A stretch of DNA of 36,372 nt from an uncultured Lachnospiraceae bacterium (GTDB taxonomy: Bacteria > Bacillota > Clostridia > Lachnospirales > Lachnospiraceae): positions 1-36,372 of the forward strand of contig CADBIU010000048.1 of assembly GCA_902794825.1 (NCBI GenBank), given 5' to 3'. This document shows positions 634 to 30,119 of the stretch, one piece after another (the stretch's first letter is position 1; each line of letters begins with the position of its first letter). A model generated the notes under the pieces. The model searched no databases and was not told where the DNA came from. It worked only from the letters and a program-made list of their open reading frames with translations. Made by a program: the position numbers and the translations under genes.

Positions 634-2106
634 TTATTGCAGGACAATCTCAGCATTTCCGGCAAAAGCAGCGGTCAATGCTTCGTATGCGCTGACACCA
701 TGCTTTCTGCCTGTACTGATATATGACATGATGTCCAGATAATCCTGCGCACCACTTTCTGTGCGAAAACAGCCGGACACCTTGGTCTTGGTTTTAACGT
801 TGCGGACATCACGTTCCGCCTGGTTGTTATCAAAGGGAACGTCGAAGTTCCTGATAAACAGGCAGACTGATGCCTTGAGTGCTACAAGGCGTTCGATGAG
901 CGATCTCTCTTTTCCTTTTTTCTTCCGTCCTTTCTTTTTCTGCGGCGGATCCGGTGGCAGAGGACATTCCTCATCGGCCAGCTTCATAAGCCTGTCATAC
1001 TCTGTGTCAAACTTATGAAGGTAATAGTAGCTAAGTTCCGTTTTGCCTTTGATTACTGCTTTATCACGGGCTCTTTTCATGGAACGCAGGAGCGCTTTGA
1101 ATGCCGGTGCCCATTTATGTTCCGGGCTGTACTGTTCAACACCGGTCAATTCCCGAAGCAGATGGGCATTACATACCGCATGAGTAACCCCGCCGTATTT
1201 CCAGTACGGAGACCAGCAGTCATGGACAGCGATGCCGATGAACTCGGTGAGTACGCCATTGTTCTCCATTCCGGTCTGGCCACGTTTCGCGTTGATCGTC
1301 TGATAGGTCAGTCCCGGAGTAGATGAGTTGTGCACCCAGATAGTCTTTCCGCTTACATCGGTACCAGTCTCATCAAAGTTGGCAACCTTTGCTCCGATCA
1401 GCATAGACTTTATGGTTTCAAGTGTACTGCCTACTTTTTTGGCACATTTCTTCACCATGGAGGTTATCGTTCCGGTGGACAAACTGACACCGAGAAGACT
1501 TCCCAGCAGGACATGGATCCGCATCGTGCTGACCGCACCATAGGTGCTCAGTAATCCGGCAAGCACGGAAACAGAATCGCCATACTGCACATATGCCCGG
1601 ATCCCTTCAGGGAATTCTCCGGCCAAAGATTCTCCGGTACACGGGCACGAATCCACATGAATTGACTGATGTTCCGTTACCCTGGTTGTGATAACCGCGT
1701 TGACTTCATAACGCTTCTCGCCGCAGGTGAATACATTACCATTCATGACACATTCGTTCAGGTGCGGGCAGGACAGACACTTTTTGGGCAGGTGCCTGCT
1801 GTACTCATCCGGTTCATGCGGAATCGACATATGCGATCCGGGATGCCCCTTTTGTCCACCCTGTTTCTTCCCGGATTTCTGGCGAAGACTCTTCGGGTTT
1901 GGCTTGTTAAAGCCATCACTTGACGGCGGTTTGGAACTGTTCCGGGAGTTCTGGTTCAGCTGGCGCTGGAGTTCCCGAATCGTTTCCTGCAGTTCTTTAA
2001 TGGTCTCATTAAGAGCTGCGTTGGACTCTGTAAGCGTTTGCACAAGGGCGGTGAGATCCGCATTCTGTTTTACCATTGTTTCGATGATAAGATCTTTGTT
2101 ATCCAT
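634..2106 (-). CDS. tnpC: IS66-family transposase TnpC
   Basis: This 490-residue DDE transposase starts at ATG 2106-2104, preceded by GGAG. The frame is open further upstream, but that stretch lacks a ribosome site and overlaps the preceding gene. Order of parts: a leucine-zipper-like coiled coil (about 10-55), the hallmark QNSRNSSKPPSSDGF motif, a basic GGQKGHPG segment, a Cys-rich zinc-finger region (CLSCPHLNEC, later SCPC), then the catalytic core with D245 (NFDETG), D296 (VHDCWSPYW) and E431 (NNQAERDVR). All three acidic residues are present and the length is normal, so it should be active. The start overlaps the end of the upstream small gene by 8 bp, suggesting translational coupling. 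Confidence 0.95.
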   Translation of the reverse strand: MDNKDLIIETMVKQNADLTALVQTLTESNAALNETIKELQETIRELQRQLNQNSRNSSKPPSSDGFNKPNPKSLRQKSGKKQGGQKGHPGSHMSIPHEPDEYSRHLPKKCLSCPHLNECVMNGNVFTCGEKRYEVNAVITTRVTEHQSIHVDSCPCTGESLAGEFPEGIRAYVQYGDSVSVLAGLLSTYGAVSTMRIHVLLGSLLGVSLSTGTITSMVKKCAKKVGSTLETIKSMLIGAKVANFDETGTDVSGKTIWVHNSSTPGLTYQTINAKRGQTGMENNGVLTEFIGIAVHDCWSPYWKYGGVTHAVCNAHLLRELTGVEQYSPEHKWAPAFKALLRSMKRARDKAVIKGKTELSYYYLHKFDTEYDRLMKLADEECPLPPDPPQKKKGRKKKGKERSLIERLVALKASVCLFIRNFDVPFDNNQAERDVRNVKTKTKVSGCFRTESGAQDYLDIMSYISTGRKHGVSAYEALTAAFAGNAEIVLQ

Positions 2107-2479
2107 TGATCCGCTCCTTTCCGGAAGCGGTATCCATAAGGATATCACAAGCCTTCTTCATCGAACGGCGGAAGGTGCGGTTTTCACTCTCCACAGCAGA
2201 AAGCCGGCTGCGAAGTTCAGCTATTAGCGCATCCTTCTGTTCCATTGCCGCAAGAGTCTGTTCATAAAGAGCCTTATAGTCTGTATCACTATGGGACAGT
2301 GTGGAAGTGTTTGCTTTTGTCCGCCTGACTGTCGGAACAACCTCGCCTGTAGCAGGGTCAATGCGCCCGATCAGCTTTCGATGGGAACGCGGCTGCTTCA
2401 GCTCCTTATCCCAATAGGAAACAGACTCATAAACATATGTTATATTTCGTGCTTTATTATGAACCTTTACGACGCCCAT
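2099..2479 (-). CDS. IS66-associated small protein of unknown function
   Basis: A 126-residue protein encoded inside the IS66-type element, directly upstream of and overlapping tnpC. The N-terminal half (VHNKARNITYVYESVSYWDKELKQ, then RKLIGRIDPATGEVVPT) resembles the short N-terminal domain often seen in IS-encoded transposase relatives. The C-terminal half (about 65-110) is a predicted coiled coil (LYEQTLAAMEQKDALIAELRSRLSAVE). It has no catalytic residues and is not TnpA or TnpB of classical IS66. Its position and coiled coil suggest it assists or regulates TnpC, perhaps by hetero-oligomerising with the TnpC zipper; that role is inference. Confidence 0.8.
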   Translation of the reverse strand: MGVVKVHNKARNITYVYESVSYWDKELKQPRSHRKLIGRIDPATGEVVPTVRRTKANTSTLSHSDTDYKALYEQTLAAMEQKDALIAELRSRLSAVESENRTFRRSMKKACDILMDTASGKERING

Positions 2480-2608: not shown

Positions 2609-4253
2609 AGGGTGATTATACCCAATCCAGATCTTATTATCAAATCAGACTTCCTATTGATTTGGAGCCAATGATCCCGGATAACGACCCGGTGCGCCTC
2701 CTGAATGCATGCGTGGAGGGCATGGACCTTTCTGAACTCTATAAGACCTATACAAGAGTTCCGAAAAATCTGGCGACGCCGAAGCAGCTATTCAAGATCG
2801 TGGTCTACGCAGCTATGAACGGGATCTATTCCAGCAGGAAGATCGAAGCCGCCTGCAGGCAGAACATAAACTACATGTATCTGCTTGAAGGAAAGCCTGC
2901 TCCGGATAACACTACGATCGCCCGTTTCATATCCCTTCATCTCGCACAGTGCTCAAAAGAACTCATGTCAGAATCCACATGGCTCCTGCGCAGGAACGGC
3001 CTCATTTCCTCTGAGGTTGTATTTATTGACGGCACCAAGATCGAGGCAAACGCTAATAAATATACTTTTGTGTGGAAAAAAGCGGTTACCAAAAACCAGG
3101 CGCGTATGCTGGAAAAGGTCGCGGAGCTCATAGCGGTATGCGAGGAAATGTATGGCATCAGGGTCGCTTACAATGACCGGATCTCACTTGGGACCATAAA
3201 AATGCTGGTCAGAGAACTGGATAAGATCTGTCAGAAAGAAAGAGTCGTTTTTGTCCACGGGAGCGGGAAAAGAAAAACAGATCTCCAGAGGTTTGCCGAA
3301 CAGGCCGGGGAATACCTTAAGAGGATGGAGGAGTATGTTTATAAGCTCGATGTATGCGGGGACCGGAACAGCTATTCTAAAACAGACCATGACGCGACCT
3401 TTATGAGAATGAAGGAAGACGCCATGCTGAACGGCCAGCTGAAACCGGCTTATAACGTCCAGCATGCGGTGGACGCCGGATTTGTCACATGGGTGGACGT
3501 CAGTTCCCATCCTGGCGATACCCTGACCCTCTGCCCCATGCTTGCTGATATGGAGAAATATCTGCACTTCAGGTACCGCGATATAGTCGCAGATGCAGGA
3601 TATGAAAGCGAGGAGAATTACATGTACCTGGAGAATAACGGTCAGGCCTCGTATATCAAGCCGACGAACTATGAGATATCCAGGACAAGGAAATATAAGA
3701 CAGACATCGGCCGCCGGGAAAATATGTCATACGACAAAGAAACAGACAGCTATACCTGCAGAAACGGGAAAAAGCTGAATGTGTGCGGTACCAGAAGATC
3801 CAGGACAACGAGCGGGTATGTAAACGTTTCAACCATCTACAGGTGCAGCGAGTGCTCCGGATGTCCGTTTAAGAGGAAATGCATCAAAGGGAATAACTGT
3901 AACACTCCGATGGAAGAACGCAGCAAAGTCCTTTATGTATCAAAGACCAAAGAGGAAAAGAGGGCAGAGAACCTGAAGCGCATCCTGAGTGATTACGGTA
4001 CACAGCTCAGGATGAACCGCAGCATACAGGCAGAGGGGACGTTTGCTGTTGTAAAAGAGGATATGGGGTTCAGACAGTACCTGTACAGGGGGAAGGATAG
4101 TGTACTGGCAGAGAGTGTGCTTGTTGCGATCGCGTATAACGTCAATAAGCTGCACTGGAAGATCCAGTCTCAGAAGTCCGGGATCCGGCTCTATGAACTA
4201 AAGAAAACGGCATAAAATTTAGACATTTCAAAACGAGCCGTCATTCAGAAATG

Positions 4254-27807: not shown

Positions 27808-28863
27808 ATGCATATGGCTGACGCTCTTCTTTCTCCCGCCGTAGCGGCTACGATGTACGTCGCGTCCGGTACAACAGTGGGACTGTCTGTAAAAAAACTG
27901 ACAGAGGATGAAAATACTCAGAAACTCCCCACCATGGCAGTGGCCTCCGCCCTGGTTTTCGCGGGACAGATGATCAACTATACGATTCCGGGGACCGGAT
28001 CTTCGGGACATATGTGCGGAGGAATGCTCCTGTCCGCGCTCCTGGGGCCTCAGGCGGGCTTTTTGTCGATGGCTGTGGTGCTGACGATCCAGTGTCTCTT
28101 TTTTGCCGACGGAGGGCTTATGGCGCTTGGCGCCAACATATGGAACATGGCGTTCTACGGGTGTTTCGTGGGGTACTACCTGATCTGGCGGCCGATCATG
28201 AGAAGCAGACTGTTTGAGAATCTCGGCGCAGAGGCGGCTCAGAGAGCCAGGATCATCGCCGCGTCGATCATCGGCTGCATCGTGACCCTGCAGATGGGCG
28301 CATTCTCAGTGGTCCTTGAGACAACACTTTCCGGGATCACGGAACTTCCCTTCAGCGCGTTTTGCGGCCTGATGCTTCCCATTCACCTGGCCATCGGCCT
28401 TGTGGAAGGCCTGATCACAGCTGCGGTGCTGACTTATGTGTACGCTGTCAGACCGGAACTGCTGCGCGATGTGGAGGTCTCAGAGGAAGTGCGCAGCGGA
28501 TCTTCCAAATCCCTCAGGACTGTTATCATCACACTGGCAGTGGCAGTAGTAGTCGTCGGCGGAATCTTTTCCCATTTCGCAAGTTCCAACCCGGACGGGC
28601 TTGAATGGGCGCTCTTCGGAAACGAGGAGGCGGGCTACAGCGCCAACATGGGCCTTGATGAGGAGAATTTCGGCACGAGCAGCGCTGTATCGGAGACGGC
28701 AGCAGGCATTCAGGAGAAGACCTCCTTCCTGCCGGACTATGCTTTTGCCGGAAGCGACAATCCCATGGGAACGACGGTCTCAGGAATTGTGGGCAGCGCA
28801 ATGGTCGCGGGAGCGGCGCTTGTGATCTGCTATACCGGGCGCTTCTTCAGAAAGAGGAACTAA
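27808..28863 (+). CDS. cbiM: ECF-type cobalt/nickel transporter substrate component CbiM with C-terminal PDGL (CbiN-like) domain
   Basis: 351 residues from ATG 27808 (GGAGGTG seven bases upstream). The N-terminal MHMADALLSP is diagnostic: the mature amine, His2 and nearby residues form the metal site in CbiM/NikM proteins. Seven or so membrane segments follow, with SGHMCGGMLLSALLGPQAGFL and QCLFFADGGLMALGANIWNM, ending in a linker. The C-terminal portion (FSHFASSNPDGLEWALFGNEE, then GTTVSGIVGSAMVAGAALVICY) resembles the CbiN/PDGLE domain, so the two small components are fused. It is the S-component of an energy-coupling-factor importer with cbiQ and cbiO further on. Cobalt or nickel cannot be told from sequence alone. 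Confidence 0.93.
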   Translation: MHMADALLSPAVAATMYVASGTTVGLSVKKLTEDENTQKLPTMAVASALVFAGQMINYTIPGTGSSGHMCGGMLLSALLGPQAGFLSMAVVLTIQCLFFADGGLMALGANIWNMAFYGCFVGYYLIWRPIMRSRLFENLGAEAAQRARIIAASIIGCIVTLQMGAFSVVLETTLSGITELPFSAFCGLMLPIHLAIGLVEGLITAAVLTYVYAVRPELLRDVEVSEEVRSGSSKSLRTVIITLAVAVVVVGGIFSHFASSNPDGLEWALFGNEEAGYSANMGLDEENFGTSSAVSETAAGIQEKTSFLPDYAFAGSDNPMGTTVSGIVGSAMVAGAALVICYTGRFFRKRN

Positions 28864-28969
28864 TTGTTTGTTTTGGGTCTGATGGCGCCTTGCCGGCGCT
28901 AAAAAGAGGAATTCGGCACAGAACTACATTTTAAGAAAAAAATCGTCCGCAAACAAAGGACGGAAAGGC

Positions 28970-29003
28970 CTTAATTGGCCGGTTCGCAACTCAGCCAATT
29001 AAG
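28970..29003 (+). other. Perfect stem-loop in the cbiM-cbiQ spacer
   Basis: CTTAATTGGC pairs with GCCAATTAAG around a 14-nt loop containing GGTTCGCAACTC. There is no U-run. It is flanked by the repeated TTCGGYA words. Confidence 0.6.
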
Positions 29004-29241
29004 AGTTCGGTACAGAAGCTTTATTTGCGTACACTTACGTCCACCAAATACAGGGATTACTGAAGAAAAGTCATAAAAATCAGGCAACAGCGCTGAGACC
29101 AGTAATTTTCATGGACGCAATTTTTTGCCAGAGACGCCTTTGTGCCGAAAATAGTAAGTAAAGGATTACCACAGGAAGGAACTACTTCATCAAAAACGTT
29201 CGGCAGGGACGAGAATACTAGAAAAACAGGTTTGCGTACCG

Positions 29242-29291
29242 AAACGGGGAGCGTTGCATCTGATCATCAACAGGATCCAACGCTTCCGTTT
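29242..29291 (+). terminator. Terminator/attenuator-like hairpin upstream of cbiQ
   Basis: AAACGG-GG-AGCGTTG pairs with CAACGCT-T-CCGTTT around a 21-nt loop and runs into TTTTGATTT. It ends 21 bp before the cbiQ ATG, so it could separate cbiM from cbiQ-cbiO or attenuate the latter. Confidence 0.55.
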
Positions 29292-29312
29292 TGATTTAAA
29301 GAAAGAATAACA

Positions 29313-30119
29313 ATGAGCCAGAATATTGAGCGTTCAATCCGCGACCTCAGGGAAATGGATACCCTCGCCTCGGGAGATTCCCCGCTCCATAAAGTCAGTG
29401 CGGGCGTGAAACTCCTTGTGACGGTGGTCTATATCCTGGTCGTGGTATCTTTTGACAAATTTAATATGAGCGGACTGATGTTCATGTTGCTGTACCCGGC
29501 GCTGCTCTTTGCGGTCAGCGGGATCCCGGTCTCCACGTGCTTCTACAAGCTGCGGTTCGTGCTGCCGCTCGTATGCGCGGTGGGGATCTTCAACCCGATC
29601 CTGGACAGGACGCCGGCTTTTGAGATCGGCTCCTTCGTGGTGACTACGGGGATGATCTCCATGATCACGCTGCTTATGAAGGGCGTGTTCTGTCTGATGG
29701 CGTCATTTCTGCTTGTGGCATCCACCAGGATCGAGGCGCTCTGCGCGGTACTTCGGAAAATTCATGTGCCGTCTATGCTGGTGACCCTTCTGCTCCTGAC
29801 TTTCAGGTATGCGGCGGTCCTGGCGGAGGAGGCCAATGTTATGACGCAGGCCTACAGTCTGCGGGCCCCGGGGCAGAAGGGAATCCACTACAAAGCGTGG
29901 GGATCCTTTCTTGGCCAGCTCCTTTTAAGAAGCATAGACCGGGCGGATGAGTTATATTCCTCGATGCTGCTCAGGGGCTATCACGGAGAGTTTTACTATG
30001 CGCAGGCAGGCGGGGGTTCGATCAGAGATGTACTGTACGCTGTATTCTGGTGCGCACTGTTCATCGCGGCGCGATGCGTGAACTTTACGCAGCTGCTCGG
30101 CACATCGGTAATGAGGTGA
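29313..30119 (+). CDS. cbiQ: ECF transporter transmembrane coupling component CbiQ (EcfT)
   Basis: 268 residues. EcfT-type proteins couple the ATPase to the substrate-binding S component. N-terminal cytoplasmic part (about 1-33), then four to five membrane segments (VSAGVKLLVTVVYILVVVS, MFMLLYPALLFAVSG, FVVTTGMISMITLLM) and a cytoplasmic coupling domain whose two helices carry the family Ala/Ser-x-x-Arg motifs near AYSLRAPG and SSMLLRGYHG. A last hydrophobic segment (YAVFWCALFIAA) closes the protein. The preceding hairpin may regulate it. It is 3 bp upstream of cbiO, with the GAGGTG ribosome site for cbiO overlapping its end. Confidence 0.92.
   Translation: MSQNIERSIRDLREMDTLASGDSPLHKVSAGVKLLVTVVYILVVVSFDKFNMSGLMFMLLYPALLFAVSGIPVSTCFYKLRFVLPLVCAVGIFNPILDRTPAFEIGSFVVTTGMISMITLLMKGVFCLMASFLLVASTRIEALCAVLRKIHVPSMLVTLLLLTFRYAAVLAEEANVMTQAYSLRAPGQKGIHYKAWGSFLGQLLLRSIDRADELYSSMLLRGYHGEFYYAQAGGGSIRDVLYAVFWCALFIAARCVNFTQLLGTSVMR

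Follow-up and report, generated by a model that had tools for sequence, protein, structure and literature searches.

The cbiM-cbiQ spacer

In an uncultured Lachnospiraceae bacterium, an unusually long stretch of DNA separates two genes of a cobalt/nickel ECF locus, and the question raised by this locus is what the spacer contains. The window analysed here is the whole 36,372-bp stretch of contig CADBIU010000048.1 in which the locus lies. An earlier note had described a gene-free spacer of 449 bp, which was confirmed: the cbiM stop ends at 28863 and the cbiQ start is at 29313, and Pfam assigned the flanking genes to CbiM+PDGLE and CbiQ. The note had also reported five TTCGGYA words in both orientations, a perfect 10-bp hairpin and a final hairpin before cbiQ. 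The words (at 28912, 29006, 29143, 29199 and 29237), the 10-bp hairpin (28970-28979/28994-29003) and the final hairpin (29242-29292) are all present. The note had found no known cobalamin or NiCo riboswitch signature, and Rfam gave no match to any RNA family in the spacer, either at the gathering threshold or at E<=10. With up to two mismatches, TTCGGYACAGAA matched 12 times in the whole window against 4.8 expected, and none of 100 shuffles gave as many.

Eleven cbiM-cbiQ spacers were inspected, of which four carry the element described below and seven (that of G032 and six others) do not. Relatives without the element (L026, L031 and L032) also show, by eye, a hairpin between cbiM and cbiQ. 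Because element-free relatives show such a hairpin, the one at 29242-29292 (plus strand), which overlaps the element edge by 3 bp, is probably a host feature outside the element; it is possibly an intra-operon attenuator or a transcript stabiliser. The cbiM-cbiQ spacer of G067 (L030 / L175 1174-1470) holds a different tandem array, made of near-palindromic CCTACGG...CCGTCGG units 63-64 bp (six turns) apart. This array was not found beside the two homologues of the partner protein (see below) fetched from G067.

Architecture and dispersal of the element

The whole element in the spacer, designated family 1, spans 28911-29244 (no strand assigned) and consists of four units, two 60-bp linkers and a 70-bp middle. 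The family-1 unit is about 34 bp long and reads GGYACAGAAG-N18-TCGTCC, and two units in direct orientation are followed by two inverted ones (++--). Unit A (28915-28948, plus strand) reads GGCACAGAAC-N18-TCGTCC, an exact match to the pattern with a PWM score of 33. The 60-bp A-B linker (28949-29008, plus strand) carries the 10-bp hairpin (28970-29003), which is copy-specific: it is kept in the four cbiM-cbiQ orthologues and was not recognised in the other element copies inspected. Unit B (29009-29042, plus strand) lies 94 bp, or nine turns, from A, and across the 70-bp middle (29043-29112, plus strand) the start distance from B to C is 104 bp, or ten turns. The inverted units C (29113-29146, minus strand) and D (29207-29240, minus strand), both located by PWM scan, are again 94 bp (nine turns) apart and are separated by the 60-bp C-D linker (29147-29206, minus strand). 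Of the five TTCGGYA words, the one at 29199 falls in a linker, and the remaining four form the outer ends of the 34-bp units. The element edges are sharp, conservation in non-redundant copies ending at (A)TTTCGG and CCGAAA(C). Dyad symmetry of the family-1 unit is weak (0.352 when centred, 0.378 one base off and 0.17-0.36 at other offsets); it is clear by eye in the arrays of L198, L227, L232 and G086, which are taken up below.

The same sequence recurs at many unrelated loci, the outcome that the earlier note had associated with a mobile element. A search of the spacer against its own genome gave longer partial matches of 67-73% identity on several further contigs, and a looser unit pattern found 31 places there (two of them unrelated by eye), with none for the reversed-pattern control. 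The fixed-length unit pattern matched 8 of 62 genomes of the genus, six with 6 to 35 matches and two with one chance-like match each; a slightly stricter pattern matched only the own genome among 295 sampled from the order. A two-unit pattern, run against a collection of 84,980 species that may leave out the own genome, gave 31 matching stretches; the six assemblies in which they all lie bear the title Lachnospiraceae or Clostridiales (RUG12657, SRR873608_bin.40, RUG13037, UBA6998, RUG12263 and RUG006). Searches of viral contigs, plasmids and phages found no copy of the element. A PWM scan of 422,612 fetched bases from six genomes detected 220 units in 63 places, 42 of them complete ++-- elements, and none in a mononucleotide shuffle.

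All 63 places are intergenic (simple gene caller, six genomes). The surrounding genes are in tandem at 32, convergent at 15, divergent at 8 and of undefined arrangement at 8. Forty of the 53 flanking genes listed were scanned with Pfam, and they include HrcA, PEPCK, aconitase, ArsP, HypA, ECF and NUDIX proteins, among others, with no common function. Copies between cbiM and cbiQ are 95-99% identical between species, against 83-92% for the flanks (the adjoining 1.5 kb on each side, mostly coding DNA). Other sites were mixed among the 28 pairs compared in all: the C60/C62 and C87 groups exceed their flanks, and others are similar or lower. Losses resemble internal deletions, leaving unit-A scars at the HipA-lactonase locus and half an element at the NUDIX locus. 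Upstream of hrcA (L079, G000:C11) lie about three repeats of a stretch of roughly 75 bp that carries a GGAGCCCTTAGAG hairpin; they adjoin an element of which the scan detected units ++- only.

The proposal of a decayed mobile element survives in part. The element is indeed dispersed; simple decay is countered by the units and spacing, which are kept in place across several species, and by the cbiM-cbiQ copy, which is more conserved than the DNA on each side. No recent movement is documented: identity between the longer matches in the own genome is no more than 67-73%, and neither a target-site duplication nor a clean insertion junction was found. Where sites with the element were compared with empty or partial ones, the flanking intergenic DNA changes too fast for clean junctions. 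Two adjacent transposase genes occupy the beginning of the window (637-2148, minus strand, and 2665-4212, plus strand), assigned by Pfam to the IS66 family and to DDE_Tnp_1_6/DUF772, the latter presumably IS1182-like. This IS1182-like transposase was rejected as the source of the element, exact motif matches within the window being confined to the spacer.

Helical phasing and the case for duplex DNA

The spacings between family-1 units lie close to whole turns of B-DNA. Of 98 distances between neighbours in the same orientation (A-B and C-D), 89 are 94 bp and the rest are 84, 93 or 95 bp. Across the middle, 58 distances fall at 73, 83, 92-94, 97 (one copy), 104, 113-115, 125-126 and 135-136 bp, with a best period of 10.40 bp (R=0.93). 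The phasing persists when orthologues are collapsed (n=37, R=0.925; random maximum 0.56 in 2000 draws) and when the 94-bp class is removed (n=23, R=0.90; random maximum 0.75 in 2000 draws). In 14 groups of orthologous sites, eight of the ten spacing changes lie within 0.15 turn of a whole number, with a mean deviation of 0.10 against 0.24 expected (p=5e-4), and the two misfits both involve a single two-unit copy. The 97-bp copy (G012:C17:47175) is off phase.

Inverted units that pair in an RNA should resemble their partners within an element more than those of other elements. Among 31 non-redundant copies no such covariation was found between units (A-D z=0.10, B-C z=-2.6), a comparison that concerns pairing between units and not within one. 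The linkers were likewise unmatched (0.288 within elements, 0.308 between), and two comparisons of units in the same orientation were slightly positive (A-B z 1.5, B-D z 2.2). This lack of covariation between inverted units argues for duplex, protein-facing DNA. A structured regulatory RNA responding to metal or B12, as the earlier note had proposed, would be in keeping with a position inside an operon and with predicted folds that are stable on both strands, the spacer folding better than dinucleotide shuffles (z -3.1 and -3.6). Against it stand the empty Rfam search, the absence of covariation between inverted units or linkers, spacings set by the DNA helix, the unrelated neighbours of other copies and the 7 of 11 inspected cbiM-cbiQ spacers that have no element. 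One of these belongs to G032, the closest relative by CbiQ (93% identical). A regulatory RNA is accordingly extremely improbable; the observation of an unusual spacer is real, and its reading as a metal-sensor RNA is wrong.

If the element were an ordinary MITE belonging to a DDE transposon, with a pair of transposase sites at each end, the sharp boundaries, inverted termini and scattered intergenic copies would be accounted for. On this reading the whole-turn lengths would reflect the synapsis of short elements, whose transposition is sensitive to helical phase. However, no target-site duplication was found when 900 combinations of offset and length were tried on the 31 non-redundant copies (best z 2.98), no transposase occurs among the 40 flanking genes scanned, the home gene described below has no Pfam transposase hit, and spacing is kept in place also after insertion. 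No autonomous transposon with the same ends was seen in the fetched loci, which come from incomplete genomes and include the same 40 genes. We regard this origin as very unlikely.

The partner gene and its arrays

In the own genome, a gene for a 277-aa protein (C76:5234-6064) lies between two family-1 elements, in an interval that also holds a GntR/aminotransferase-type gene. A 277-aa homologue has the same position in four close relatives, making five genomes in total. The gene and its 93-96% identical orthologues are present in five of the six genomes of the genus with family-1 arrays and in none of the 56 others (Fisher p=9e-7). The exception, G009, has two family-1 elements with no homologue detected; this assembly is 84% complete with 6% contamination, and both elements lie on one 7.9-kb contig.

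A second family of arrays has the same relation to homologous genes. At the AcnX locus of two species, family-2 units read GGGCACAG-N17-TTGTTCCCC and are mirrored, with steps of about 62 bp (six turns) and a centre near 52 bp (five turns). Some family-2 arrays, above all in G035, have other steps (81, 104, 113 and 117 bp). A period fit to family-2 distances in the same orientation (best printed value 10.04) was discarded, most units having been counted twice, one base apart. A 278-aa gene lies between two family-2 arrays in G023 and G032, and such arrays are found on both sides of a homologous gene in G012, G077 and G079 as well, again five genomes in total. The AcnX gap itself is occupied by family 1 in G077 (C86), by family 2 in G012 and G032 (L146 and L148) and by neither in two more genomes, which suggests a common landing place or replacement.

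Of the 62 genomes of the genus, 35 contain homologues of the 277-aa protein. For a wider survey, 57 homologue loci were reduced to 45 representatives (<80% identity), with short-period tandem repeats filtered out; the arrays found beside them have other sequences than family 1. A modal repeat spacing within 1 kb was found at 22 of the 45, against 1 of 23 control loci; an earlier, cruder count had given 16 of 30 against 2 of 19. The spacings, between 39 and 104 bp, have a best period of 10.32 bp (R=0.76), a value reached by none of 1000 random sets, and those of 45, 54 and 70 bp fit whole turns poorly. The 23 representatives with no array by this strict criterion include L178 of the own clade; since L178 has known flanking elements and fails, the criterion misses real arrays. 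Homologues at L191, L187 and L252 adjoin short-period tandem arrays of about 20 bp rather than phased ones. Two distant homologues in the own genome (L228 on C22 and L230 on C50; open frames of 362 and 352 aa, matched in the nuclease part) have tandem repeats of 70 and 72 bp nearby, the 70-bp case being off the whole-turn rule.

Beyond the genus, 17 of 398 genomes sampled from the phylum match the 277-aa protein. Whole-protein matches are confined to five genomes of the family (the own genome, G086 with six copies, G089, G102 and G113); elsewhere only the nuclease part is matched, often within longer reading frames. At least two repeat pairs within 1 kb were found at six of nine whole-protein loci in other genera, or at seven of nine with exact reading-frame placement, and at none of 12 nuclease-only and nine viral loci. 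In G086, which belongs to a second genus, the home-locus motif TACCTGCA-N19-TGCAGGTA, picked by eye from the cleanest of the three G086 arrays read, has 67 copies at <=1 mismatch, mostly in trains 74-75 bp apart. Any match to it occurs in 9 of 41 genomes of that genus, six of them with a single match; the reversed-pattern control gave 0, G086 included, except for one match in G764. As far as sequence comparison goes, these are dispersed, whole-turn-phased duplex arrays that are linked to this protein family.

A predicted nuclease fold

No Pfam or NCBIfam family was found for the partner protein, and Pfam gave no transposase or serine-recombinase hit for it. Transposase_17 (Pfam01797) was absent at E<=5 (seven homologues). 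The AlphaFold model (pLDDT 87.6, pTM 0.56) places a helix, three strands and a long helix before a PD-(D/E)XK-like core. Fold matches in the PDB are weak (best E 5e-3), the first ten being Bax1, the R2 retrotransposon protein and SSO0001, all of which we take to be nuclease-bearing. The PHROG endonuclease match is also weak (best 4e-4). Viral profiles matched were endonuclease, DUF2726, Vsr and homing endonucleases (best 4e-4), and matches in viral contigs are confined to the nuclease part. The phage-defence candidate PDC-S68 of PADLOC matched five homologues at 3e-22 to 4e-28, in the nuclease part only. In an alignment of 22 sequences (P0002 and 21 of the 30 homologues read, near-duplicates and two others being left out), 15 columns are invariant, including VRSK.E, PDF and EH.G. 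E167, P196-D197 and E212-H213 are invariant in 22 of 22. No conserved lysine follows E212, and the catalytic lysine typical of PD-(D/E)XK enzymes is not apparent. The model and profile searches together indicate that the C-terminus probably adopts a PD-(D/E)XK-type nuclease fold.

These resemblances bear on a role in homing or defence, in which the arrays would serve the cell as its own platforms or decoys for keeping an anti-invader nuclease, or be targets at which the nuclease drives gene conversion. The likeness to PDC-S68 and to viral Vsr-type and homing endonuclease models points in that direction, as do motif dialects that vary between lineages and the AcnX gap, where G077 has the family-1 dialect and G012 and G032 that of family 2. 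The matches in viral contigs nevertheless covered the nuclease part only, and no defence gene was noticed by eye in the few home loci read. Such a role is considered unlikely, less so than a MITE origin.

A more serious alternative is that the arrays serve the host, as docking sites of a domesticated, non-cutting DNA-binder that loops or organises the chromosome or regulates its own gene, following an ancient dispersal. In its favour, orthologous sites keep their units and phase in different species, conservation of the cbi copy exceeds that of the DNA around it, all 63 copies are intergenic and recent copies were not seen. Nuclease-type active-site residues invariant in 22 of 22 sequences are, however, unexpected for a pure binder. 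Elements have been deleted in some species and are therefore not essential, and the mixed orientation of neighbouring genes does not fit promoter control. About one chance in five or slightly better would be given to it.

Proposed function

The reading preferred here, with moderate confidence, is that the arrays are docking sites of their cognate nuclease-fold protein, in an organisation that resembles REP/RAYT and uses unrelated chemistry. The 277-aa protein, or its dimer, would bind each unit through the N-terminal helix/three-strand/helix domain. With sites whole turns apart, the bound molecules would all face the same side of the DNA, and from this we infer that they may assemble cooperatively and thereby fold the mirrored array into a single complex. 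On this complex the C-terminal PD-(D/E)XK-type domain would then act, and in the past it may have duplicated arrays or transferred them to further intergenic gaps, as RAYT enzymes presumably do with REPs. The copy between cbiM and cbiQ would then be a gene-less passenger, unconnected to cobalt or B12.

In broader terms, the evidence tilts slightly towards a previously undescribed two-part system of Lachnospiraceae, in which fast-diversifying nuclease-fold proteins would own and seed intergenic, whole-turn-phased platforms, with a dialect for each lineage. No description of such arrays was found in the literature searched, a weak negative, as the search covered few subscription papers and no preprints. 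This reading would explain a class of intergenic repeats in Lachnospiraceae that is unnamed in the libraries used, and a protein family outside Pfam and NCBIfam gains a probable DNA partner. Comparing site dialect with protein lineage would offer a direct test bed for the evolution of DNA-binding specificity, and the whole-turn rule yields clear bench predictions. Should the protein prove to cut or mobilise its arrays, the REP/RAYT lifestyle would have been reached a second time, by unrelated chemistry; should a nuclease instead be stored on the chromosome in this way, a new defence layout would be at hand.

Comparison with known systems

Like MITEs, the elements are short, gene-less and scattered, with inverted ends; unlike them, they have phased internal sites, and neither a target-site duplication nor a transposase partner was found. 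The res sites of serine resolvases contain dyad-like subsites of about 28-34 bp that are necessarily whole turns apart. Family 1 shares this subsite size and whole-turn spacing, whereas the present arrays are mirrored, have four to eight units and are dispersed, and Pfam gave no serine-recombinase hit for the partner protein. Viral Vsr-type and homing endonucleases, DUF2726 and PDC-S68 resemble the partner protein in predicted C-terminal fold or profile, but they have neither its N-terminal domain nor its partnership with arrays.

The closest likeness in organisation is to REP/BIME repeats with RAYT: a home gene flanked by repeats, many gene-less intergenic copies and lineage-specific repeats. 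According to PMC2817692, RAYT genes are flanked by REPs, RAYT homologues carry Transposase_17 (Pfam01797), and REPs are palindromes with preserved complementary features. The partner gene is likewise flanked on both sides by repeats, a feature not seen at every homologue. In contrast to REP/RAYT, the present system combines a PD-(D/E)XK-like protein with whole-turn-phased duplex repeats that show no pairing covariation between inverted units. The array system is thus not classed with REP/RAYT, because its enzyme class and the nature of its repeats depart from the features that define that system.
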